Assembly (NCBI RefSeq): GCF_900106075.1
Contig: NZ_LT629794.1
Coordinates: forward strand, 1,654,001-1,718,000
Direction of reading: 5' to 3'
Length of the DNA: 64,000 nt
Source of the DNA: Polaribacter sp. Hel1_33_78
Lineage (GTDB): Bacteria > Bacteroidota > Bacteroidia > Flavobacteriales > Flavobacteriaceae
Shown: positions 5,485 to 36,139 of the stretch, piece by piece
Layout of the letters: each line of letters starts with the position of its first letter
How positions within the stretch are numbered: position 1 is the stretch's first letter
Program-made: the position numbers and the translations under genes
The notes under the pieces: generated by a model
Seen by the model: the letters and a program-made list of their open reading frames with translations, nothing else
Database searches by the model: none
Told to the model about the DNA's origin: nothing

Positions 5485-6136
5485 CTATTTAAACAGCAAT
5501 TCTAAAGATAAAGCATCGATATAACCATCCGCTAAAAGATTATTTTTTTCTTCAAAAGTTTTAATAGCCTTTAAAGTTTCTATTCTGTACACACCATCAA
5601 TAGTAATATTATAACCAAGTGTTACCAATCTTTTTTGTACTTCAAAAATTATTGCATTTTTTTCACCTTTGTACAAATTTATGTTTGGGTCGAATAAACT
5701 TTGAATTTTTAAAAATTTTTCTCGATTTCTATACGTTTCTATATCAACTCCATTTTCTTCCAAGAATTTTATTTCTTTATTCGAAAGACCTTTTTCTTTA
5801 TGTTTAAACGAGTTTACAAGCCTAGCTTCATAGTAATTTACTTTTGCTAATTTTTTTGAATAGTTCTTAACGGCCGTTTTTGTTTGGATATCATCATTTT
5901 CTGGAGCTCTTACATCGATATCCTTTGCAGACCATTCTAACATAATATAGCTATCTAATTCTTCAACAGCTTCATAATAATTTAGCACTAGATCTTGGTT
6001 ATAATATTCTAGATCTAGCTTTTTGTCATCAATTTTAATTTACTTCAGGGGAATGATACCTTTTGTATTGATTGTATTTTCCAAAACCAATAATAAATAA
6101 AATTATTACCAATAAAAAAATAATTAGCTTCTTCAT
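5485..6136 (-). pseudogene. Membrane-anchored peptidoglycan-binding-domain protein, frameshifted
   Basis: Two pieces make one gene. The upstream piece starts with ATG at 6136, encodes a hydrophobic N-terminal anchor (MKKLIIFLLVIILFIIG...) and stops near 6035. The downstream piece, open from about 6037 and giving a 167-residue ORF from a GTG at 5988, ends with a PG_binding_1-like domain (residues about 115-167 of that ORF). Removing one base in the AAATTAA stretch near 6035-6041 joins them into about 216 residues with no gap. A -7 promoter match lies at 6156-6163, just above the ATG, which supports the longer start. It converges with menE, 10 nt apart. Function unknown; probably envelope. The alternative is that only the GTG-started cytoplasmic form is made. 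Confidence 0.6.
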
Positions 6137-6369: not shown

Positions 6370-7066
6370 TTAATAATCGGAAAAACCTTGAGCTATTTTT
6401 TCCAGTTTAATTTTATTAACGATAATAATATCTTTTCCTTTAAATGCAATAATTTCTTTTTTTTTTAAAATCTGACAATAATCGAATTGCAGATTCAGTT
6501 GCCGTGCCAATAATATTTGCAATATCTTCTCTGGAAAGATGAATGTTTATAGCATTCTCTTGGTTTGTCTTAAATTCTGAATGCAAGTTTAAAAGTGTTT
6601 CAGCTAATCGTTGTTTCACATTTTTTTGTGCCATGTTTACAACTGAATTTTCAGATTTTTTTAAAGAATTAGCCATAGTTTTTAGAATATCCATAGTAAA
6701 GTCAGGGTTTTTTTCTAAATCCTTTATTATTTCATCTTTAGGTATAAAACACACTTACATAATATTTAAGGCAAAGGCACTTAGATTAGAAACTTCATCA
6801 GAAACTAAACTTCTTTCACCTATTAAATCTCCACGTTTTACCAAACTTACAATTTGATTCTTTCCGTTTTCACTCATTTTGGAGACTTTACAAATTCCTT
6901 TTTTAATGCAGAAAACACCATTAATATGCTCACCTTCCTCAAAAATAGGTTGGCCTTTTTTAATGATTTTAGATGTTTTACAAGCCGCCATCCTCAGTAA
7001 CTCGTCCTTAGAAAGGTGTTTTAGAGAATTAAGTCTACGTACTATGCATTGTTCACAGTTTTTCAT
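6370..7066 (-). pseudogene. fnr: Crp/Fnr-family transcriptional regulator, interrupted
   Basis: An Fnr-type regulator beside cbb3 oxidase genes. The N-terminal piece has the cysteine pair NCEQC and a cyclic-nucleotide-binding-like fold; the C-terminal piece has the Crp-type winged helix (LSREDIANIIGTATESAIRLLSDF). Two lesions are visible. First, an in-frame TAA at 6757-6755 separates the pieces, with coding resuming at the next codon. Second, a run of ten A (minus strand, near 6455-6464) shifts the frame; with nine A the protein runs on for about 20 residues to a TAA at 6372-6370, giving the usual length of about 230. I chose ATG 7066 because the frame upstream (TTG at 7114) lacks family resemblance. 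It is divergent from ccoI and a candidate regulator of the FNR-like boxes. Confidence 0.75.
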
Positions 7067-7108
7067 TGACTGAAGGTCTTTATTATTGTTCCAAATATAT
7101 TCAAAAAC

Positions 7109-7120
7109 TGACAAAAATCA
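7109..7120. promoter_or_regulatory. FNR-like operator upstream of ccoI
   Basis: TGACAAAAATCA fits the FNR/CRP half-site layout TGAY-N4-RTCA and lies between the divergent fnr and ccoI genes, ending 50 nt before the ccoI ATG. The same core and the flanking ATTT occur in inverse orientation at 11716-11727 upstream of ccoS. Binding by the adjacent Fnr-type protein is inferred. Confidence 0.5.
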
Positions 7121-7170
7121 TATTTTAAACTCAAATCTTATCAGAAATTTGTTTAGGCAAAAGAGTAAAT

Positions 7171-9546
7171 ATGAAGACTACACATTGTTATCATTGTGGA
7201 GATTCTTGTAAGAATGCTGATATTCAGTTAGATTATAAGTTTTTCTGTTGTAATGGTTGTAAAACAGTTTATGAAATTTTTTTTGAAAATGATTTAACAT
7301 GCTATTACGATTTTCAAGATACTCCAGGAGCAATTCCTTCTGAAATTGAAGGGAAGTATGACTTTCTTGAAAATAACAGTATACAGGAAAAACTATTAGA
7401 TTTTATTGACGGAAATAAGGCAATAGTAACCTTATACATTCCTCACATTCATTGTAGTTCTTGTATTTGGGTATTGGAAAATTTACATAAATTAAATACA
7501 AAAATTTCTTCTTCACAAGTAAATTTTCTGAAGAAAACTGTAAGGATTTCTTTTAACTCAGAAACAATATCTCTTAAAGTAATTGTCCTTTTATTGACTG
7601 CTATTGGTTATGATCCCTATATTAGTTTAGAAGATTATGAGACAGGCAGAAAGGATGTAGATAGAAGTTTAATTTATAAATTAGGAATTGCAGGTTTTGC
7701 TTTTGGAAATGTTATGTTTTTATCATTTCCAGAATATTTTCAAGTGGATGGTTTTTGGATAGAAAAATATAAAAATATTTTTAGATGGTTAATGTTTTTC
7801 TTTTCACTACCAGTAGTTTTTTATGCGGCAAATGATTATTTTATTTCGGCTTATAAAGGTCTAAATTCTAAAATATTAAATATTGATGTACCTATTGCTC
7901 TAGGAGTTTCTGTATTGTTTATTAGAAGTTCGATTGAAATAATTTTTGATTTAGGAACTGGCTTTTTTGATAGCTTAACAGGTTTAGTTTTCTTTCTTCT
8001 TTTAGGAAAATATTTTCAACAAAAAACTTATAATTTCTTGTCTTTTGAACGTGATTATAAATCCTATTTTCCAATTGCAGTAACCAAAATTATATCAAAT
8101 CAAAAAGAGGAAAATATACAAATCTATGAAGTTGAAAAAGGTGATAGATTATTGATTAGGAATCAAGAATTAATTCCTGTTGATAGTGTTCTTATCAATG
8201 GAAAAGCACAAATAGATTACAGTTTTGTGACAGGTGAAGCTGTGCCTGTTTCTAAAAAATCTGGAGATAAATTATTTGCTGGTGGTAAACAACTTTCAGG
8301 AGTTTTAGAAATAGAAGCTTTAGCATCAGTTTCTCAAAGTTATTTAACACAACTCTGGAGTAATGATGTTTTTAATAAAGACAAATCTTCTTCCTTTAAA
8401 ACATTAACAGATAAAATCAGTAAAAATTTTACAATTTTTGTTTTAAGTATTGCTTTTTTGTCAACTCTATTTTGGCTGTTTTATGATGCTTCAAAAGCAT
8501 TAAATGTATTTACAGCAGTTTTAATTATTGCTTGTCCTTGCGCAATTGCATTAGCAGCTCCTTTTACTTTAGGAAATCTTTTACGCATTTTTGGAAAGAA
8601 AAAATTCTACTTAAAAAATGCAACTGTTATTGAACAATTGGCAAGTATAAATTCTATAATATTTGATAAAACAGGAACGTTAACAACTAGTAAAGAAGAA
8701 ACAATTTCTTATAATGGAACTGCTTTGGATCATCAAGAAAAAACCATTTTAAAAAGTGCTTTAAGAGCTTCTAATCACCCTTTGAGCAGAGCTTTATATA
8801 AGACTTTTGCTGAAGTAGAAACAATTGCAATCTCTAATTATAAAGAAGTTGTTGGTCACGGAATTGAAGTTAAGTATAAAGAAGATAAATTAAAATTAGG
8901 TTCAAGTTCATTTGTCAATAATGATCATGAAATTAAGTCTTTAGACACCTCAGTGCATATCAGTTTTAATAATATTTATAACGGTAAATTCACTTTTAAA
9001 AATTCATACAGAAAAGGAGTGAATTCACTATTTAGATCCTTAAATAATGAATATGATTTAGCTGTACTATCTGGAGATAATGAAGGAGAAAAAGATTTTT
9101 TACAAGAAAACTTCCCAAAAGAAACCAAATTATTGTTTAACCAGAAACCAAATGATAAATTAGAGGTGGTTGCTGCATTTCAAAAAGAAAATAAAAATGT
9201 AGCTATGATTGGTGATGGTTTAAATGATGCAGGAGCTCTTGCACAAAGTAATGTAGGTATTTCTTTATCAGAAAATATCAATGTTTTTTCCCCAGCATGT
9301 GATGCTATCTTAGATGCTTCACAATTTGATAAAATTGAAGATTTTTTTAAGGCATCAAAAAAAGCAATGACAATTATAAAATATTGCTTTTTATTATCAC
9401 TTTGTTACAATGTTGTTGGATTGTACTTTGCGGTAACAAGTCAGTTAAGACCGGTGGTAGCGGCAATTTTAATGCCTTTAAGCTCCATAAGTGTTGTTGT
9501 CTTCACAACAATTTCAACTAATTTAATAGGAAATAAAATCAAATAA
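7171..9546 (+). CDS. ccoI: Copper-translocating P1B-type ATPase of cbb3 oxidase assembly
   Basis: CcoI/FixI exports or delivers copper across the cytoplasmic membrane for the cbb3 oxidase. In order: an N-terminal cysteine-rich metal-binding segment (CYHCGDSC... CCNGC, residues 6-30), an HMA-like domain with CSSC at 95-98, transmembrane helices, the actuator TGEAVP loop, the membrane copper motif CPC (about residues 454-456), the phosphorylation motif DKTGTLT (about 498) and the hinge [12 protein letters not shown]. Length is 791 residues. It is divergent from fnr and upstream of deoD, hemN and the oxidase genes. The N-terminal Cys-rich domain and the genomic position favour CcoI over a general CopA. 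Confidence 0.9.
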
Positions 9547-9548
9547 TT

Positions 9549-10250
9549 ATGAGCGTACATATAGAAGCCAAAAAAGGAGAAATTGCTGAAACAGTTTTAT
9601 TACCAGGAGATCCTATGAGAGCGAAATGGATTGCAGAAACTTTTCTGGAAGATAGCTTTCAATACAATGATGTAAGAGGAATGTTAGGTTTTACAGGAAC
9701 TTATAAAGGTAAAAAAATATCTATTCAAGGCACAGGGATGGGGATTCCATCCACCTTAATTTATTGCCATGAACTTATTAATGAATATGGAGTCAAAAAT
9801 TTGATTAGAGTAGGTTCTGCCGGCTCATATCAAAAAGAAGTTAAGATTAGAGATATCGTTTTGGCTATGGCAACTTCTACGAACTCAGGATTAAATACCA
9901 TTCGTTTTAGTGGAGCAGATTTTGCACCAACAGCAAGTTTTAAATTACTTCAAAAAGCGATTGAAGTTGCGAAAGAAAAAAATATTCCTATTAAAGCTGG
10001 AGGTGTTTTAAGTTCTGATGAGTTTTATGCCGATGATTTTGAAAGTTATAAAAAATGGGCAGATTACGGAGTTTTATGTGTAGAAATGGAAACATCTGGT
10101 TTGTATACAGTTGCAGCAAAACATAATGTTAATGCATTATCAATTTTAACAATTTCTGATAGTTTGGTTACCAAAGAAAGAACTACCTCAGAAGAAAGAG
10201 AACATACTTTTAAAGAAATGATTGAAATTGCCTTAGAACTTACGGAATAA
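9549..10250 (+). CDS. deoD: Purine-nucleoside phosphorylase
   Basis: DeoD phosphorolyses purine (deoxy)nucleosides to base and (deoxy)ribose-1-phosphate in purine salvage. The 233-residue protein has the PNP/UDP family phosphate-binding sequences ([14 protein letters not shown] near the N-terminus; RVGSAGS around residue 87), the nucleoside-site MET (VEMETSGLY, about 177-185) and the late catalytic aspartate (ISDS). The size fits the hexameric bacterial type. It lies 2 nt after ccoI and 7 nt before hemN, so it is wedged inside a low-oxygen respiration operon without an obvious functional link. Confidence 0.93.
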
Positions 10251-10257
10251 TATAAAA

Positions 10258-11621
10258 ATGATAAAATCACTAATTCAAAAATATAATATTCCAGGTCCAA
10301 GGTATACTAGTTATCCTACAGTTCCTTTTTGGGACGAAGCAACGTTCACAAAAAAAAATGGATTAAAACATTTAGAGATTCTTTTAATGAGAGCAATAAA
10401 TTAGAGGGTATTAGTCTTTATATTCATTTACCTTTTTGTGAGAGTTTGTGTACATTTTGTGCTTGCCATAAACACATTACAAAACGTCATGAAGTAGAGG
10501 AGGAGTATATCAAAACGGTTTTAAAAGAATGGAAATTATATGTTGATTTGGTTGATGAAGTACCCATTGTTAAAGAGTTGCATTTAGGAGGAGGGACACC
10601 TACTTTTTTTTCTAAAGAGAATTTAAAAGTTTTAATTGATGGAGTGTTTAAAGATGCAATAAAACATGCAGAATCAGAATTTAGTTTTGAAGGACATCCA
10701 AGTAATACAACTAAAGAACAGTTGCAAACTTTGTTTGATGTTGGGTTTACGAGAGTCAGTTTTGGCGTACAAGATTATAATGAGAAGGTTCAGAAAGCAA
10801 TTCATAGAATTCAACCTTTTGAAGTTGTAGAACGAGTTACAAAATGGGCTAGAGAAATTGGCTACACATCAGTAAGTCACGATTTAATTTTTGGTTTGCC
10901 CTTTCAAACCAAAGAAAACGTTATTTATACAATCGATAAAACAAAAGAATTAAAGCCAGATAGAATTTCCTTTTATAGTTATGCTCATGTGCCTTGGGTA
11001 AAAGGTGTAGGTCAAAGAGGATTTAATGAAAACGATTTACCAAAAAATGAAGAAAAAAGAGAGTTATATGAAATTGGAAAACAACTATTTTCTGAATTGC
11101 AGTATGAAGAAATTGGTATGGATCATTTTGCGTTAAAGACCGATAGTTTATATCAGGCGACAATCAACAAAACATTGCATAGAAATTTTATGGGGTACAC
11201 ATCCAACAAAACTCAATTAATGATTGGTTTAGGAATGTCAGCAATTTCTGATTCTTGGTATGGATTTGCACAAAATGTAAAAACGGTTAAAGAATACCAA
11301 CAAATTGTAAATTTAGGAGAAATTGCAGTTTATAGAGGACATCTATTATCCGTGGAAGATCAAATTATAAGAAGGCATATTTTAAATATAATGTGTCATT
11401 TTGCTACTTCTTGGGAAGAAAAATCAACTCAAATCAAAAATATTGAAATGCACTTAGGTCTTTTACAAGAACTGCAAAAAGATGGTTTGGTGAAAATTGA
11501 AGAAAACTCTCTCTCAATTCCAGGACATGCTAGACCTTTTGTAAGAAATATTTGCATGGCTTTTGATAAAAGGTTGCAAGAAAAAGAACCGGCAACAAAA
11601 CTATTTTCAATGACAATTTAA
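10258..11621 (+). pseudogene. hemN: Oxygen-independent coproporphyrinogen III oxidase, frameshifted
   Basis: HemN is a radical-SAM enzyme that decarboxylates coproporphyrinogen III without oxygen, supplying haem at low oxygen. The ATG at 10258 encodes the family N-terminus (KYNIPGPRYTSYPTVPFW), but the frame is lost at a nine-A run at 10350-10358; the rest continues in another frame to 11621. One more A restores a continuous protein of about 454 residues. The radical-SAM cluster CESLCTFC (CxxxCxxC) follows the break, with GGGTP and the later HemN C-terminal domain intact. A TTG at 10329 could start a shorter protein that lacks the N-terminus. The upstream spacing to deoD is 7 nt. Confidence 0.82.
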
Positions 11622-11715
11622 AGTGTTTAAAACAATTTTATAGAAACTTTTTTTTACCAAAATAAACAACAATATTATTAATCTTCTTGATTTTTTTTTG
11701 TTAAAAACTCAAATA

Positions 11716-11727
11716 TGATAAAAGTCA
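11716..11727. promoter_or_regulatory. FNR-like operator upstream of ccoS
   Basis: TGATAAAAGTCA sits inside the longer perfect palindrome TATGATAAAAGTCATA with a four-base spacer, 55 nt before the ccoS ATG. Its reverse complement, TGACTTTTATCATATTT, matches the ccoI-side site (TGACAAAAATCATATTT) apart from the spacer. It probably drives the oxidase operon, with regulation by the Fnr-type protein or a paralogue inferred. Confidence 0.55.
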
Positions 11728-11782
11728 TATATTAAGAATTGTATCAAAACTATTTTTGAAATATTAAATTATCAGGCAAGAT

Positions 11783-11950
11783 ATGAGCGTAATATATTTA
11801 CTACTTACCTTAAGTATTTTAGTGGCATTAATATTTTTTATAGCATTTATTTATTCAGTAAAAAGAGGGCAATATGATGACTCATATACGCCATCTGTTC
11901 GCATGCTATTTGATGATGAACTCGTAAAGAAAAACAAGAAAATTAACTAA
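11783..11950 (+). CDS. ccoS: cbb3 oxidase maturation protein CcoS
   Basis: A 55-residue single-pass membrane protein (MSVIYLLLTLSILVALIFF...) with the CcoS pattern: an N-terminal helix followed by a short polar tail containing KRGQYDD and a methionine. CcoS is required for cofactor insertion into the cbb3 oxidase in characterised bacteria. It lies 18 nt before ccoN and directly downstream of the FNR-like box, making it the first gene of the oxidase operon. Confidence 0.85.
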   Translation: MSVIYLLLTLSILVALIFFIAFIYSVKRGQYDDSYTPSVRMLFDDELVKKNKKIN

Positions 11951-11968
11951 ATATTAATACATTAAATT

Positions 11969-14163
11969 ATGGAGATGCAACAATTTTATTACGATAATAA
12001 AATCGTAAAAAAATTCATTTATGCGACATTACTATGGGGAATAGTAGGGTTTAGTATAGGTTTACTATTAGCTTTTATGTTTTTATTTCCAAATCTTACA
12101 GACGGCATATCCTGGCTAAGTTTTGGACGTTTAAGACCTTTACATACTAATGCTGTAATTTTTGCTTTTGTAGGAAATGCAATTTATGCAGGAGTTTATT
12201 ATTCACTTCAGCGATTGTTAAAAGCGAGGATGGCAAGTAATTTTTTAAGTAATTTTAATTTTTGGGGTTGGCAATTAATCATTGTTGCAGCCGCAATTAC
12301 TCTTCCTTTGGGGTACACTAGCTCAAAAGAATATGCAGAGTTAGAATGGCCAATAGACATCTTAATAGCGTTAGTTTGGGTTGCATTCGGTGTAAATATG
12401 ATTTGGACAATTTTACAACGAAGACAACGTCATTTATATGTTGCTATTTGGTTTTATTTAGGAACATTTGTTACTGTAGCTGTGCTTCATATTTTTAATA
12501 GTTTAGCATTACCAGTAAGTTTTTTAAAAAGTTATTCTGTTTATGCTGGCGTTCAAGATGCTCTTGTGCAATGGTGGTATGGTCATAATGCAGTTGCATT
12601 TTTTTTAACAACACCATTTTTAGGTTTGATGTACTATTTTGTTCCAAAAGCTGCAAATAGACCTGTTTATTCTTATCGATTATCAATAGTGCACTTTTGG
12701 TCTTTAATTTTTATATATATCTGGGCAGGACCGCACCATTTATTATACACCTCATTACCAGATTGGGCTCAGAATTTAGGAGTTGCATTTTCTGTTATGT
12801 TAATTGCTCCTTCTTGGGGGGGATGATAAACGGCTTATTGACTTTAAGAGGTGCTTGGGACAAAGTTAGAACAGATCCTGTTTTAAAGTTTATGGTGGTT
12901 GCAATTACAGGTTATGGTATGGCAACTTTTGAAGGCCCAATGTTATCGCTTAAAAATGTAAATGCAATAGCACACTTTTCTGATTGGATTATTGCACACG
13001 TTCACGTTGGTGCACTAGCATGGAATGGATTCTTCACTTTTGGAATGCTGTATTGGCTAATACCAAGAATGTTTAAATCAAAATTATATTCAGTGCCATT
13101 AGCAAACTTCCATTTTTGGATAGGAACTTTAGGAATTATATTATACACTTTACCAATGTATGTTGCCGGTTTCGTGCAAGCTTCTATGTGGAAACAGTTT
13201 AATCCTGATGGATCTCTTACGTATGGAAACTTCTTAGAAACAGTTAATGAGATTATTCCGATGTATTGGATGCGGGCAATAGGAGGAACTATGTTTATAA
13301 TAGGTGTAATTGTAATGTTATACAATGTTGTACAAACTGTAAAGTCAGGCAGTGGAGTAGAAGATGAGCTAGCAGAAGCAGCGGCTTTAGCCAAGGTTTC
13401 TAAATATAGAACAAAAGGTGAAGGTTGGCATACTTGGTTAGAAAGAAAGCCAATTAAATTAACAATTTTTGCAACAGTTGCAATCCTAATTGGAGGTGTT
13501 GTTCAAATTATACCAACATTATTAGTGAAGTCTAATATACCAACAATTAGTAGCGTAAAACCATACACTCCTTTAGAGTTAGAAGGAAGAGATTTATACA
13601 TAAGGGAAGGTTGCGTAGGCTGTCACTCTCAGATGATAAGGCCTTTTAGAAGTGAAGTAGAGCGTTATGGTGAATATTCTAAAGCTGGTGAGTTCGTGTA
13701 TGACCATCCATTTTTATGGGGGAGTAAACGTACCGGACCAGATTTACACAGAATTGGTGCAAAATATTCTGATAGTTGGCATTTAAACCATATGTACGAT
13801 CCACAAAGTACATCTCCAGGGTCAATTATGCCATCTTACAAATGGATGATTAGGAATGTCCTTGATAAATCTGATACAGAAGGTAAAATGAAAGCTATGG
13901 TTGCTTTAGGAGTTCCTTATTCAGAAGAAGAAATAGCAAATGCACAAGTTGCAATGGATGTTCAAGGAAAAGAAATTGAAGACAATTTACATCAAGATTT
14001 AGATTTTGCTAAGAATTATGCAGATGATAAAAAGTATGCAAAGGAAAATGGAGAAGAGTTTGTTGAAATGAAGAATAGAGAAATCGTTGCTATCATAGCT
14101 TACATTCAAAGACTTGGAACAGATATTAAAGTTAAAGACGAGCAAAAAACCGATAAAAATTAG
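11969..14163 (+). pseudogene. ccoN: cbb3-type cytochrome c oxidase subunits I and II fusion, frameshifted
   Basis: This is the catalytic subunit fused to the mono-haem subunit CcoO, as in Bacteroidota. CcoN carries the haem and CuB histidines (H59 in [28 protein letters not shown]) in a polytopic membrane domain. The CcoO part follows, with a linking helix and the haem c motif CVGCH (nt 13613-13627) and a distal methionine-containing region. At 12816-12822 a run of seven G breaks the frame: the first frame ends at 12826 after APSWGG, and the second resumes with [10 protein letters not shown]. Eight G would give an uninterrupted protein of about 731 residues. As sequenced, no complete oxidase can be made. 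Neighbours are ccoS, ccoQ and ccoP. Confidence 0.9.
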
Positions 14164-14168
14164 AAAAT

Positions 14169-14336
14169 ATGTTAAAATTTGTAAAAAATCATATGGAGAG
14201 TATCACCGGTATAGAAATATATCCAATGATATCACTAATAATATTTTTCACTTTTTTTGTAGCCTTATTTTGGTGGGTTTTTACAGCAAAAAAGGAGTAT
14301 ATAAATACCGTAAGTAATTTACCGTTAGATCATTAG
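14169..14336 (+). CDS. ccoQ: cbb3 oxidase subunit CcoQ
   Basis: A 55-residue protein with a short polar N-terminus, one transmembrane helix (MISLIIFFTFFVALFWWVF) and a basic tail (TAKKEY). This matches the small CcoQ/FixQ subunit that stabilises the assembled oxidase. It begins 5 nt after the ccoNO stop and ends 14 nt before ccoP, so the operon order N-O-Q-P is conserved. Confidence 0.8.
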   Translation: MLKFVKNHMESITGIEIYPMISLIIFFTFFVALFWWVFTAKKEYINTVSNLPLDH

Positions 14337-14350
14337 TAAAATAAATAAAA

Positions 14351-15208
14351 ATGAAAAAATATTTTCAATCCACAGTATATGTAATTTTTGTAATAGTTAC
14401 GTTTATAGCACTTGCGAAATCTTTTATGGTGTATGAGAACCCCTTTGATCTTTATGAAAACCCTCTTGTCTGGTTGGCATTAATAGGATTAATTTTAGTA
14501 GTCGCTTTAAAAGAAATTGTAAATATTATTGCAGTAACTAAGGTAAGACAATTTCAAAATGAAAAAGAGGGTATTGTGCCAGAAGCAGCAGATGCCTGGA
14601 TTCAAAAGCTAATAAAATCTTGGACAAAAGTAAAACCGATAGAACAAGAGCAAGAAATTATTTTAGACCATAATTACGATGGTATTAGAGAATTAGACAA
14701 TTCTCTTCCACCTTGGTGGGTGTATATGTTTTATGCAACTATTGTTTTTGCAGTTGTTTATTTAATAAGGTTTGAGGTTTTAGACGGAGATAATCAAATT
14801 ATGGAATATGAAAAGGCAGTAGCAGCGGCAAGAACGGAAATAGATAAATACAAATCTACGGCTACAGATTTAATTACAGCTGAAAACGTAACTCTACTGA
14901 CAGAAAGTAAAGATTTAAAAAGAGGTAAAGCTGTTTTTAATTTAAACTGTGCATCTTGTCATTTGTCAGATGGAGGTGGATCTATAGGTCCAAATTTAAC
15001 AGATGAATTTTGGTTTCTTGGTGGTGGTGTTAAAAATGTTTTTATGACTATTTCTAATGGAGGTAGAGATGGAAAAGGAATGATTGCCTGGAATAAAACT
15101 TTAAAAGCAGCAGACATAGCTAAAGTTTCTAGTTATGTAATTTCATTGCAAGGAACTACTCCAGCAAAAGCAAAAATAGCTCAAGGGGAAAAATGGGTTC
15201 AAGAATAA
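14351..15208 (+). CDS. ccoP: cbb3 oxidase subunit III, c-type cytochrome
   Basis: CcoP passes electrons to CcoO and CcoN. The 285-residue protein has an N-terminal membrane region (two helices in the first 60 residues), the CcoP N-terminal motif (DHNYDGIRELDNSLPPWW, about residues 109-126) with its following helix, and a periplasmic cytochrome c domain with CASCH near residue 202. Only one CxxCH motif is present, whereas proteobacterial CcoP usually carries two haems. The frame is intact. It is followed after a 72-nt gap by ccoG. Confidence 0.9.
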   Translation: MKKYFQSTVYVIFVIVTFIALAKSFMVYENPFDLYENPLVWLALIGLILVVALKEIVNIIAVTKVRQFQNEKEGIVPEAADAWIQKLIKSWTKVKPIEQEQEIILDHNYDGIRELDNSLPPWWVYMFYATIVFAVVYLIRFEVLDGDNQIMEYEKAVAAARTEIDKYKSTATDLITAENVTLLTESKDLKRGKAVFNLNCASCHLSDGGGSIGPNLTDEFWFLGGGVKNVFMTISNGGRDGKGMIAWNKTLKAADIAKVSSYVISLQGTTPAKAKIAQGEKWVQE

Positions 15209-15280: not shown

Positions 15281-16702
15281 ATGGAAATACCCAACAAAGA
15301 AAGTTTTAGAGATAGCATTGGTACCATGAATTCAGATGGGAAACGATCTTGGGTATTTCCAAAAAAACCAAGTGGCAGGTTTTATAAATATAGAAGCTAT
15401 GTAAGTTATTTTCTTTTGATTTTTTTTCTTTTTTCACCATTTTTAAAAATTAAAGGAAATCAGTTTTTACTATTTAATGTCTTAGAACGTAAGTTTAATA
15501 TTTTTGGATTTCAATTTTGGCCCCAAGATTTCTATTTATTGGTAATTTCAATGATCGTAGGTGTCGTCTTTATAATTCTTTTTACAGTTGTTTTTGGTCG
15601 AATTTTTTGCGGGTGGATTTGTCCACAAACTATTTTTTTAGAAATGGTTTTCAGAAAAATTGAACATTTGATTGATGGTAATCGAGGAAAACAAATAAGG
15701 CTCAGTAAACAACCTTGGAATGCAGAAAAAATAAGAAAACGAATTCTAAAATGGTCTATTTTTTTTATCATTTCTTTCATTATTGCCAATGTTTTTTTAG
15801 CTTATTTAATTGGAGGTGATACAGTTATAGGTTTTATTAAAGGAAACCCCTTAGATAATATTAGAACACTTATATCTCTTATGATTTTTACTTGTGTATT
15901 CTATTTTGTTTTTGCTTGGTTTAGAGAGCAAGTATGTATTATAGCCTGTCCTTATGGCCGATTGCAAGGAGTTTTATTAGACAACAAAACTATAAATGTA
16001 GCGTATGATTACAAAAGGGGAGAAGGAGAAAATGGAAGAGCTAAATTTAGAAAAAATGAAGACAGAACAGTCGCAGGAAAAGGAGATTGTATAGATTGTA
16101 AACAATGCGTGGTAGTTTGTCCGACTGGTATTGATATTAGAAATGGTACGCAATTAGAGTGTATAAATTGTACAGCTTGCATAGATGAATGTGATCATAT
16201 GATGGAAAACATAGGTTTGCCTAAAGGATTAATTAGATATGCAAGTGAAGATAATATTGCTAAAAAGAAAACATTTAAGTTTTCAGCAAGAATGAAAAGC
16301 TATTCAGCCGTATTATTCATACTATTAGGTATTTTAATAGGAATGTTGTTTTTAAGAAATGAAGTAGAGGCTAACATTTTAAGATTACCAGGACAATTAT
16401 ATGAACACAAAGAAAATAATATTATTAGTAATGTGTATACCTACAAAGTTATCAATAAAACAATAAAAGATATTCAAGATGTGAATTATAAAATTTTGTC
16501 TCATACAGGTAAAATAAAACTAGTTTCAAATCATAACTTTATAATTCCAAAACAAAGTTTAGCAGAAGGAACTTTATTTATAGAGTTAAATACTTCAGCT
16601 ATAAAAAAGGATAAAATAAAATTAGAAATAGGAGTTTTTAGTGGAACTAGACTAATAGAAACCACCTTTACAAATTTTCTAGGACCAAGAAGTTACAGAT
16701 AA
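15281..16702 (+). CDS. ccoG: cbb3 oxidase accessory protein, polyferredoxin
   Basis: CcoG (FixG/RdxA) is a membrane iron-sulfur protein implicated in copper handling during cbb3 assembly. The 473-residue protein has membrane helices, the conserved FGRIFCGWICPQ and CIIACPYGR segments, and two ferredoxin-type 4Fe-4S clusters (CIDCKQCVVVCP, then CINCTACIDECD), followed by a helix and a C-terminal immunoglobulin-like domain. The first ATG is preceded by a short A-rich leader, and the N-terminus 'SFRDSIGTM...GKRSWV' is typical of the family. Located between ccoP and ccoH. Confidence 0.92.
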   Translation: MEIPNKESFRDSIGTMNSDGKRSWVFPKKPSGRFYKYRSYVSYFLLIFFLFSPFLKIKGNQFLLFNVLERKFNIFGFQFWPQDFYLLVISMIVGVVFIILFTVVFGRIFCGWICPQTIFLEMVFRKIEHLIDGNRGKQIRLSKQPWNAEKIRKRILKWSIFFIISFIIANVFLAYLIGGDTVIGFIKGNPLDNIRTLISLMIFTCVFYFVFAWFREQVCIIACPYGRLQGVLLDNKTINVAYDYKRGEGENGRAKFRKNEDRTVAGKGDCIDCKQCVVVCPTGIDIRNGTQLECINCTACIDECDHMMENIGLPKGLIRYASEDNIAKKKTFKFSARMKSYSAVLFILLGILIGMLFLRNEVEANILRLPGQLYEHKENNIISNVYTYKVINKTIKDIQDVNYKILSHTGKIKLVSNHNFIIPKQSLAEGTLFIELNTSAIKKDKIKLEIGVFSGTRLIETTFTNFLGPRSYR

Positions 16703-16714
16703 AAGAATAGAATT

Positions 16715-17161
16715 ATGAAAATAAATTGGGGTACAGGTATCGTTATTGTTATTGCGGCGTTTATAAGTTTTATTATGTATTTTGTAATTACTATGAGTAC
16801 AAATAATAAATACAGTTATGATTTAGTAACTGATATCTATTATCAGCAAGAATTACAATACCAAAAACAAATTGAAGCTGAGAAAAATGCAAAAAATTTA
16901 ATAGAGAATGTAAAACTAAAACATTCTGAATTCGGACTAACCGTAAATTTTCCGAAAGATTTAGATTATAAAATGATTAATGGAAAAGTGTTCCTATACA
17001 GACCATCTAATAAACAATTAGATTTTGAAATACCTATTTCAATCTCTAAACCATATTTGCTCGTGCCTGAGAAACGTTTATTAGATGGTCGTTGGAACAT
17101 TATTGTGTCTTGGACTTATGAGAAAAAAGATTATTTATTTAAAAAAGAATTAAACTTATAA
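16715..17161 (+). CDS. ccoH: FixH/CcoH family protein
   Basis: A 148-residue protein with one N-terminal transmembrane helix (about residues 7-27), an alpha-helical segment (YYQQELQYQKQIEAEKNA) and a C-terminal beta-rich domain. This is the FixH layout, a cbb3 assembly factor proposed to interact with CcoI. It follows ccoG by 12 nt, and its TAA stop shares one base with the ATG of the next gene, so translation is coupled. The assignment rests on architecture and operon position because FixH is poorly conserved. Confidence 0.82.
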   Translation: MKINWGTGIVIVIAAFISFIMYFVITMSTNNKYSYDLVTDIYYQQELQYQKQIEAEKNAKNLIENVKLKHSEFGLTVNFPKDLDYKMINGKVFLYRPSNKQLDFEIPISISKPYLLVPEKRLLDGRWNIIVSWTYEKKDYLFKKELNL

Positions 17162-17865
17162 TGTTTTTATCTGCAATCATATTTGGTGTATTCGGGAGTT
17201 TTCATTGCATAGGAATGTGTGGTCCAATAGCTTTTATGCTGCCGGTAGACAGACAGAAACCGTTAAAAACTTTTTTCCAAATTTTAAGTTATCATTTTGG
17301 AAGGTTATTAACTTATAGCTTCATTGGTTTGCTTTTTGGTATTTTAGGCAAAGGTTTTTATTTCTTTGGATTTCAGCAGCAATTATCGATTATTACAGGT
17401 GTTTTAATGATTTTTATAATTCTTTTTCCTAGAATATTTAAAAAATTCAGTTTTTCTAAAAATATAAGTACCATCATTTTCAGAATAAAAAATAGCTTAG
17501 GAAAAGAGTTGAAAAAGAAAGGAAATGACACTTTTTTTACCATTGGATTTTTAAATGGTTTTTTACCTTGTGGTTTGGTATATATGGCTATTTTTGGAGC
17601 AATAGCAGCTTCTAATCCACTGTCAGGCAGTTTATATATGTTTTTATTTGGTTTAGGTACCATTCCGTTAATGACAGCGGTGGTTTATTTAGGCCGCTTT
17701 ACCAAAGGTAACTTCAGAAAAAATATTCAAAAAGCAATTCCAATTTTTGTTGTTTTTATTGGCACTTTATTTATTTTAAGAGGTTTGGGTTTAGGCATAC
17801 CTTTTATTTCTCCATTAGAACCTATTTTATCTTCTGCTGGAAGCAGTGCACGAAGTTGTTTTTAA
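17161..17865 (+). CDS. SafE/TauE-like (UreH-type) membrane protein
   Basis: A 234-residue polytopic protein beginning with 'GVFGSFHCIGMCGPIAF', the conserved FHCxGMCGP signature of the UreH/CcoH-associated subgroup of sulfite-exporter TauE/SafE proteins, followed by HFGRL and NGFLPCGLVY. In oxidase operons such proteins are often found at the end and may take part in copper or thiol handling; the transported substrate is unknown. It overlaps ccoH by one base (TAATG) and is the last gene of the respiratory cluster. The cysteine pairs in two membrane segments would suit metal binding. Confidence 0.8.
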   Translation: MFLSAIIFGVFGSFHCIGMCGPIAFMLPVDRQKPLKTFFQILSYHFGRLLTYSFIGLLFGILGKGFYFFGFQQQLSIITGVLMIFIILFPRIFKKFSFSKNISTIIFRIKNSLGKELKKKGNDTFFTIGFLNGFLPCGLVYMAIFGAIAASNPLSGSLYMFLFGLGTIPLMTAVVYLGRFTKGNFRKNIQKAIPIFVVFIGTLFILRGLGLGIPFISPLEPILSSAGSSARSCF

Positions 17866-31881: not shown

Positions 31882-33558
31882 TTCAAAAGATTGGCGTAGT
31901 TTTTCTAAAAGTGGGTTTTTCTCTTTCAATTTGTTAAATTTCTCCAAAGGCGTATAAGCAAACTTTTTTTCTACTGTTTCGTTTAAAATAGCATCAATTT
32001 TAATTCCATAATTATTTAGTTTTTCCCTTAAAAAGTTTAATAGTTTTGGTCTTCCTTTTTTAAATTGATCTTGCATTAATTTATTAGGAACCGTAAAAGA
32101 AATTTTGAAATGTTGTTTTAGTCTAGGAACATCAGTACCTACAATCGAAGCCATACTTCGTTCTCCTTTTTTATTCAATAAATCCACATACTCTTTCCAG
32201 AATTGTTGTAATAATTTTTCTGTAAAAATAGTTTTTGGGTGGTTATCGAAATTTTCTTCAACAACTAATTTTTTTTCTTGTTTTTTCTGATGGATACTCT
32301 TTAAAGAAAGAGAAGAAGAACGTTTTTCTGCAGACTTTAAAACAGGTGTTTTAACTTTTGGCTTTGGTTCTTCTAATTTTTGAGACTGAACGGCTTCAGG
32401 TTTTTTCTGAATTGGTTTCGATATTTCTTTTGCAGCTGGCGAAAGTGCTTGGAAAAAAGTAGCAGGAATTATGTAGTTAGCTGACTTTTTTTTTTCTCCA
32501 TCAAAAGTGATAGAGGCAATTTGCATTAAGGTTAATTCTACCAGTAATCGCTGATTTTTACTAGATCTGTAGTTTAAATCACAATCATTTGCTTTGCTAA
32601 TGGATTGCATTAAAAAAGGAATACTCGCTTTGGTAGCTTGCTCTAAATACTTCTTTTTTGCTGTGTCACCTACCTCTAACAAGGCCAATGTTGCTTTGTC
32701 TTTGGCAACTAACAAATCTCTAAAATGACTTGCTAATCCATTTATAAAATGATGTCCTTCAAATCCTTTTCCTAAAATAGTATTAAACGCATTTAATACA
32801 TCTGGTATTTTGTTTTCTAATAACAAACCTGTCATATTAAAATAAGTATCATAATCTAATACATTCAGGTTTTCTGTAACGGCTTCACGTGTTAAGTTTT
32901 TTCCAGAAAAGCTAACCACTCGATCAAAAATTGATAAAGCATCTCTCATGGCTCCATCTGCCTTTTGAGCGATAATGTGCAGAGCATCATCATCCGCTGT
33001 TATATTTTCTTTTCCACAAATTATTTTTAGATAATTTTTAGCATCTAAAACTCCAATTCTTTTGAAATCAAAAATTTGACAACGTGATAAAATAGTCGGA
33101 ATTATTTTATGCTTTTCTGTGGTCGCTAAAATAAAAATAGTATGTGCAGGAGGCTCTTCTAATGTCTTTAAAAAAGCATTAAAAGCTGCTTGCGAAAGCA
33201 TGTGAACTTCATCAATAATATATACCTTATATTTTCCTGTTTGAGGCGGAATTCTAACTTGGTCTGTTAAACTTCTAATATCATCTACAGAATTGTTAGA
33301 GGCGGCATCCAGTTCAAAAATATTAAAAGCAAAATCTTCATCTCCAGAAATTTCAACATTGTGTTGATTTATTTTTTTTGCTAAGATTCTTGCACAAGAA
33401 GTTTTACCTACACCTCTTGGTCCTGTAAATAAAAGAGCCTGTGCTAAATGATTGTTTTTTATAGCATTTTCTAACGTATTTGTTATGGCTTGTTGGCCAA
33501 CAACATCCTCGAAATTTTTAGGACGATATTTACGTGCAGAAACTATAAAATGCTCCAT
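31870..33558 (-). CDS. dnaX: DNA polymerase III subunits gamma and tau
   Basis: The clamp-loader ATPase. The 562-residue protein has Walker A GPRGVGKTS (about residues 45-53), Walker B with DEVH (VYIIDEVHMLS), sensor 1 (LATTEKHKIIPTILSRCQIF) and the AAA lid domains, then a lysine-rich linker (about 380-450) and a tau-like C-terminal domain. The four cysteines of the classic zinc module between Walker A and the DAASN motif are absent. A ten-nt homopolymer (10 T on the plus strand near 32486-32495) within the frame is read correctly. A promoter match lies at 33582-33612. Confidence 0.95.
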   Translation of the reverse strand: MEHFIVSARKYRPKNFEDVVGQQAITNTLENAIKNNHLAQALLFTGPRGVGKTSCARILAKKINQHNVEISGDEDFAFNIFELDAASNNSVDDIRSLTDQVRIPPQTGKYKVYIIDEVHMLSQAAFNAFLKTLEEPPAHTIFILATTEKHKIIPTILSRCQIFDFKRIGVLDAKNYLKIICGKENITADDDALHIIAQKADGAMRDALSIFDRVVSFSGKNLTREAVTENLNVLDYDTYFNMTGLLLENKIPDVLNAFNTILGKGFEGHHFINGLASHFRDLLVAKDKATLALLEVGDTAKKKYLEQATKASIPFLMQSISKANDCDLNYRSSKNQRLLVELTLMQIASITFDGEKKKSANYIIPATFFQALSPAAKEISKPIQKKPEAVQSQKLEEPKPKVKTPVLKSAEKRSSSLSLKSIHQKKQEKKLVVEENFDNHPKTIFTEKLLQQFWKEYVDLLNKKGERSMASIVGTDVPRLKQHFKISFTVPNKLMQDQFKKGRPKLLNFLREKLNNYGIKIDAILNETVEKKFAYTPLEKFNKLKEKNPLLEKLRQSFELDM

Positions 33559-35620: not shown

Positions 35621-36139
35621 TTACTTTTTGATTTCCTGTTTTTGAATACCTAATTCTGCAATTACTAATTTTGTTACGTCAAATTTTTCATCGATGTAAG
35701 CAAACTGATTCCCTTTAGTTGTTAATATCTGTGTATAACCATTCTTTTTAGCAACCGTATTTATTGCATTATTTAATATTTTATACAATGGACGCATTAA
35801 CTCATTTTTTTTTAATTGCATTAATTTATTACCATTGCTTTGATATTTTTTGATATCTTCTTCTAGGGCAGAAATTTCTTTAATTATTGTTTTTTTCATT
35901 AATTCTCCCATTTCTTCTTCTTTATTTTTAAAATTCTGAACTTTAGCCTGAAAATCCTGTGTTTTAAGAGAAAAGGAAGAATCTAATTTTGCTCCATAGG
36001 CTTGGGATCTTTCGAAAACCACTTTGGCTTCTGGCATTAAACTCATAATATAATCGCTATCAATTGTACCAACTTTTGTTTGTGCAATAGAAATGGTGCT
36101 TAGTAAAGCGATAAAAAGAACTGTGATTTTTGATTTCAT
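35621..36139 (-). CDS. OmpH/Skp-family periplasmic chaperone
   Basis: A 172-residue protein with an N-terminal signal peptide (KITVLFIALLSTISIAQ, cleavage near residue 19), then the Skp-type start 'KVGTIDSDYIMSLMPEAKVV', a long coiled-coil helix rich in lysine and glutamate (about 50-115) and a beta-strand tail. Skp binds unfolded outer-membrane proteins. A 9-nt T run inside the gene (plus strand, near 35805-35813) is in frame. The unit ends at the terminator at 35575-35599 and has a -7 match at 36159-36166. Confidence 0.88.
   Translation of the reverse strand: MKSKITVLFIALLSTISIAQTKVGTIDSDYIMSLMPEAKVVFERSQAYGAKLDSSFSLKTQDFQAKVQNFKNKEEEMGELMKKTIIKEISALEEDIKKYQSNGNKLMQLKKNELMRPLYKILNNAINTVAKKNGYTQILTTKGNQFAYIDEKFDVTKLVIAELGIQKQEIKK

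Follow-up and report, generated by a model that had tools for sequence, protein, structure and literature searches.

Frame breaks in fnr, hemN, and ccoNO of Polaribacter sp. Hel1_33_78: a possible recent inactivation of a low-oxygen respiration locus

The cbb3-type cytochrome oxidase of Bacteroidota, together with HemN, the oxygen-independent coproporphyrinogen III oxidase, constitutes an Fnr-regulated module. We analyzed such a locus in Polaribacter sp. Hel1_33_78, in a 64,000-nucleotide stretch (hereafter "the window") corresponding to positions 1654001 to 1718000 of its single-contig genome (NZ_LT629794.1, 3,227,823 bp; G000 in our genus survey). Unless otherwise indicated, coordinates refer to the window. 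Gene order and the Fnr-type boxes, found at the same places, are as in relatives; however, fnr, hemN, and ccoNO (the fused cbb3 oxidase subunits I/II) are out of frame. These lesions may reflect a real, recent inactivation of this one Fnr-HemN-cbb3 locus for low-oxygen respiration, an interpretation on which our judgment is evenly balanced.

The kind of event is an ordinary one, i.e., pseudogene formation or gene loss, and already known in bacteria. Here as there, frames are broken in long A or G runs and by a stop codon, and the pathway concerned is also missing elsewhere in the genus. In contrast, several neighboring module genes are hit, there is no clear older drift, and a neighbor outside the module is hit too. 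Most errors of long-read sequencing consist of short insertions or deletions in homopolymers (PMC12007338). The lesions resemble consensus errors of this type in that single-base indels affect long runs of an assembly made up of one contig, but they lie in one patch and the fnr truncation is also present on other contigs. Long mononucleotide tracts in coding sequence are likewise a hallmark of homopolymeric contingency loci, although here the tracts are not conserved and one of the lesions is a stop codon. A literature search of titles and abstract beginnings retrieved no account of this fnr-hemN-ccoNO locus and none of its loss in flavobacteria, nor is the locus the subject of the passages from PMC1088944, PMC3017870, and PMC12007338 cited here.

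Lesions in the fnr-hemN-ccoNO locus

An initial sequence-only reading of this DNA had claimed that fnr, hemN, and ccoNO are all out of frame, which was confirmed from the reading frames and by protein comparison with relatives. The regulator gene is broken twice: on the minus strand, the cyclic nucleotide monophosphate (cNMP)-binding domain is followed by a TAA at positions 6755 to 6757, after which the same frame continues through the helix-turn-helix (HTH) domain until it changes at a T10 run (A10 in the gene). This frame change had been correctly recognized, but the run occupies positions 6457 to 6466 rather than 6455 to 6464. In hemN and ccoNO the frame changes at the A9 and G7 runs where they had been placed (10350 to 10358 and 12816 to 12822, respectively). 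The two ccoNO pieces were matched in order by 89 reference entries and the two hemN pieces by 17 (6 + 11). The reading frames of ccoI, ccoS, ccoQ, ccoP, ccoG, and ccoH are open, as also claimed. Previously overlooked was a fourth frame-broken gene, adjoining fnr on the same strand (5485 to 6136); two of its pieces match, in different frames, a single 216-aa relative, with the break near position 6032. The attribution of the lesions to homopolymer tracts applies to the fnr run, hemN, and ccoNO, and not to two of the five lesions, the fnr stop and the 6032 indel, which lie outside long homopolymers. The features of the region are as follows.

5485 to 6136, minus strand: fourth broken gene, small protein with a C-terminal PG_binding_1 domain (PF01471); frame changes near 6028 to 6038
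6370 to 7066, minus strand: fnr, Crp/Fnr-family regulator (PF00027, PF13545), broken twice; start inferred from public protein P0241
6457 to 6466, minus strand: T10 run (A10 in the gene), frame change near the 3′ end of fnr
6755 to 6757, minus strand: in-frame stop codon of fnr (TAA)
7109 to 7120: predicted Fnr box TGACAAAAATCA in the fnr-ccoI spacer; the loci of 7 relatives have similar sites there
7171 to 9546, plus strand: ccoI-type P-type ATPase, intact
9549 to 10250, plus strand: nucleoside phosphorylase (PF01048), intact
10258 to 11621, plus strand: hemN, oxygen-independent coproporphyrinogen III oxidase; frame break close to the 5′ end
10350 to 10358, plus strand: A9 run, frame change in hemN
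11716 to 11727: predicted Fnr box TGATAAAAGTCA, upstream of ccoS/ccoNO
11783 to 11950, plus strand: ccoS, intact; named from its position and the sequence-only reading
11969 to 14163, plus strand: ccoNO fusion, cbb3 oxidase subunits I/II (PF00115, PF02433), frame-broken mid-gene
12816 to 12822, plus strand: G7 run, frame change in ccoNO
14169 to 14336, plus strand: ccoQ, intact; named from its position and the sequence-only reading
14351 to 15208, plus strand: ccoP, intact
15281 to 16702, plus strand: ccoG, intact
16715 to 17161, plus strand: ccoH, intact

The order fnr, ccoI, (phosphorylase), hemN, ccoNO, ccoP, ccoG is common to several relatives, and both predicted Fnr-type boxes sit at the same places as in the loci of 7 relatives. 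A separate observation comes from a comparison of positions 10258 to 10460 with the near-identical hemN product P0121 (96% identity): the two are very different in a segment of about 25 residues surrounding the A9 run, which would fit the exchange of a short stretch.

Truncated Fnr in other assemblies

The stop-truncated Fnr was found as an identical 103-aa protein on eight public contigs, which may not represent independent isolates. The longest of them measures 3,227,923 bp, 100 bp more than the genome analyzed here. Two other forms were recovered: one of 208 aa, encoded on a 1,286-bp contig, without the stop and with the same frame-shifted end, and one of 206 aa on seven contigs, with neither the stop nor the frame shift, the late start of which may be a matter of annotation. 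The search for this query admitted proteins of up to 208 aa, and full-length Fnr copies therefore could not appear. These data support a truncation of fnr that extends beyond a single assembly. We regard the lesion as probably real, since the identical truncated form occurs on eight contigs, one of them differing in length from this genome, and since near-identical forms without the stop also exist. A wider reading would be that near-identical strains carry fnr in intact, stop-truncated, and run-frame-shifted states, the Fnr-HemN-cbb3 locus being inactivated in natural populations through standing variation and close kin differing in low-oxygen respiration; this we regard as doubtful. When DNA over hemN-ccoNO was compared among 166 genus genomes to find a close sister, the best other identity was 87%.

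The module across the genus

In a survey of 121 genus genomes, each at least 95% complete, ccoNO was present in 106 and formed one open frame in 102 of these. hemN, with presence scored at E 1e-100, was detected in 104, in 103 of which it aligned over nearly its whole length in one open frame. All 15 genomes devoid of ccoNO also had no hemN match at this threshold (Fisher 2.5e-17). Two other genomes had no hemN: G109, with an open ccoNO, and G055, in which ccoNO (L272, G055:C1:3361301-3364900) is split by the plain insertion of a long reading frame that we take to be an IS110-type transposase. In G028, fnr was represented only by a 72-residue match (G028:C1:2022287-2022502), and G009 and G093 gave only distant Fnr-family matches; in all three, ccoNO and hemN are open. 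The Fnr-HemN-cbb3 module is dispensable in the genus. The genome under study has open genes for HemF (303 aa) and for a second COX1-family heme-copper oxidase subunit (595 aa); life with oxygen should thus be possible without hemN or ccoNO. The idea that HemN is essential, and that its lesion must consequently be an error, was rejected given the presence of HemF.

Single frame breaks in ccoNO were also seen in G039 (L030) and G086 (L271), at positions other than here and outside long runs. A reverse search for G019 revealed no lesion in that genome, its single entry being the broken ccoNO described here.

Clustering of frame breaks

To place the lesions against the background of the assembly, 864 kb of the 3.23 Mb were sampled (the window plus 40 stretches of 20 kb each), of which 258 kb could be aligned to proteins of relatives, about 250 kb of it outside positions 5.5 to 14.2 kb. 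When the window and the first 20 of these stretches were scanned with a codon model, the ccoNO break was detected and those in hemN, fnr, and at 6032 were overlooked; breaks were therefore counted by protein comparison against the open frames of relatives. Breaks close to gene ends escape this comparison, so that the counts outside the patch are lower bounds.

Four frame breaks were found by protein comparison in aligned coding DNA, three of them within this 8 kb (binomial 1.3e-4), or four of five if the fnr run is added (binomial 5e-6), in both cases with the patch chosen after being seen. With long runs defined as at least 8 A/T or at least 6 G/C, three of six were broken in the aligned coding DNA of the 5.5- to 14.2-kb region versus 1 of 73 elsewhere (Fisher 0.001, again for a patch chosen after being seen). 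An equal indel frequency in all long homopolymers, which the sequence-only reading had named as speaking against its claim, is not what these counts show. For A/T runs of at least 8, the figures in aligned DNA were 2/5 inside versus 0/68 outside (Fisher 0.004); for G/C runs of at least 7, 1/1 inside versus 1/2 outside, with none of three runs of 6 broken, numbers too small to judge a general effect. Within the patch, the breaks fall on the A10, A9, and G7 runs, whereas the three T8 runs are spared. The lone outside break in aligned DNA, at L126:15448, falls in a C8 run (L126:15443-15450) near the C terminus of what is presumably a LysR-type regulator.

A general miscall of A/T runs is not supported by the 0/68 figure, and the two control runs offered by the sequence-only reading, T10 at 32486 and T9 at 35805, are located in genes that are open and aligned. 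The earlier argument that in-frame runs elsewhere speak against miscalls thus holds for A/T runs; it is weak for the G7 run, given the broken C8 run. The codon-model scan adds one outside break in unaligned DNA, in an A8 run at L115:10524, within a gene that we assume to encode an ABC-transporter permease. This was the only one read as real among the 13 frameshift calls and one stop call inspected; the others corresponded to ordinary neighboring genes or edges (L126:7756 being ambiguous). A protein-comparison call at 17172, based on one distant subject, was taken as two ordinary adjacent genes and not counted, and the partly covered genes at L252 and L270, inspected among eight such entries, seemed ordinary. 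As a control, rpoB was free of internal frame breaks in all 121 genus genomes, including this one, and was cut over at least two contigs in four. A mismatch-repair defect was discarded as an explanation as far as mutS1 is concerned, which is open at 875 aa.

Tract conservation, age, and regulon

Of the 31 genus loci aligned at the ccoNO tract (32 given, one of them without a match, and two genomes represented twice), 30 have an A or T within the G run, and the remaining one (L029) carries an in-frame G7. At the fnr tract site, at most 6 consecutive A were found in 26 relatives, most of them from other genera, and at the hemN site 3 to 7 A in 14 relatives. Among the sequences compared, the long tracts are private to this genome.

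Changes at otherwise invariant columns (up to 7 relatives) numbered 4 here versus a mean of 6.1 in hemN, 1 versus 1.9 in ccoN, 5 versus 3.0 in ccoO, and 6 versus 3.0 in fnr. Such counts vary, as illustrated by the intact ccoG with 15 versus a mean of 5.4. This relaxed-selection test gave no clear excess in hemN or ccoNO and a small one in fnr, an excess being required only for old decay. Because there is no clear conserved-column excess and the Fnr-type boxes are still kept, any loss of the module is, to judge from these comparisons, recent.

With a site model partly trained on the window's own sites, two other predicted Fnr targets were identified in the 864 kb sampled (L115:16291-17142 and L123:7224-9998), presumably encoding a universal stress protein and pyruvate phosphate dikinase; both are open. 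Three further weak matches were in or near nothing clear. Regulon-wide Fnr decay is therefore not supported, and as far as sampled the decay is local.

Discussion

Of the options offered by the sequence-only reading, regulon decay survives in the restricted form of decay of the module, while its regulon-wide version does not, given the two open targets. Decay of the module is the leading explanation because truncated Fnr is found on eight contigs and hemN and ccoNO have been lost together in the genus. The stop codon removes the DNA-binding half of Fnr, the supported step of the proposed sequence of events. Once Fnr is missing, hemN and the cco operon, both with retained Fnr-type boxes, would no longer be induced and would be freed from selection. 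The slipperiest tracts, i.e., A10 of fnr, A9 of hemN, and G7 of ccoNO, would then be the first to change length, breaking the frames. In oxygen, the strain would tolerate the loss because it retains HemF and a further heme-copper oxidase. The indel at 6032 in the adjacent gene would be an unrelated background lesion or an error.

Several observations weigh against this inactivation. The eight contigs may, as noted, come from fewer isolates. The broken gene next to fnr is not respiratory, judging from its PG_binding_1 domain, so the claim that a single low-oxygen system is hit stands for the three module genes and fails for their neighbor. With that neighbor broken, and with the downstream cco genes and the two other predicted Fnr targets open, the breaks are grouped by position no less than by function. 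The C8 break in L126 means that the G7 break may belong to a wider weakness of the assembly. The four genomes with interrupted ccoNO (G000, G039, G055, and G086) are all single-contig assemblies (4/41 versus 0/65, Fisher 0.02; list compiled by hand). Finally, the broken ccoO fragment has no entry of its own among the matches listed in the protein search (best listed identity 87%, clustering level 90%), and an intact ccoNO product would be 90.3 to 90.6% identical to P0001, P0002, and P0003 and hence hidden in their clusters. Together these two points hint that ccoNO is intact in other assemblies, although annotation pipelines that discard pseudogenes could also explain the missing fragment.

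The strongest competitor is a patch of local consensus error of about 7 to 8 kb, from low coverage or an unpolished join, combined with a general weakness in long G/C runs. In that case hemN, ccoNO, the gene at 5485 to 6136, and perhaps the fnr run would be intact in the living strain and only the fnr stop real. We consider this a serious possibility that falls short of probable. It would account for the positional clustering of the lesions, non-respiratory gene included, and for the open downstream module genes, and it fits the lack of a clear conserved-column excess, the ccoO fragment missing among the matches listed, and the C8 run broken elsewhere. The contig that is 100 bp longer than this genome and has the same truncated Fnr also speaks for it. 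Such a patch would, however, have had to coincide by chance with a locus in which the regulator is truly defective, and the frame-shifted fnr end recurs on the separate 1,286-bp contig. Also unfavorable to it are the absence of broken long A/T runs outside in aligned DNA, the A8 break at L115:10524 being in unaligned DNA, and the absence of internal frame breaks in rpoB.

Reversible ON/OFF switching of the cbb3 pathway by slippage, i.e., phase variation, had been another suggestion, prompted by long tracts in all three genes, and the fnr tract alleles do seem to differ among near-identical proteins, as inferred from the protein letters. Comparison of run lengths leaves it very unlikely, because the relatives lack the tracts. 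In addition, no change in run length can reverse the fnr stop codon, the fnr tract lies at the 3′ end of the gene, mutS is open, and no report of cbb3 switching was found in the titles and abstract beginnings searched. Equally improbable in our estimation is that transcriptional slippage on the A9 and A10 runs restores the frames at expression, leaving the genes alive. In many genomes, selection against slippage becomes apparent at runs of about nine A/T (PMC1088944), and homopolymer frame breaks have been described in otherwise conserved Blochmannia genes (PMC3017870). Both the run-length threshold and the Blochmannia precedent would suit such a rescue, as would the otherwise conserved hemN and ccoNO, but the G7 run and the internal fnr stop are not obvious substrates and the 6032 indel is outside a long run.

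Should the lesions prove to be errors, they would be a caution against gene-by-gene metabolic inference from single-contig assemblies. If the inactivation of the Fnr-HemN-cbb3 locus is real, it would represent the loss of a respiratory module caught at its first stage, in a genus in which 15 of 121 genomes lack the module, and would show whether the regulator goes first.

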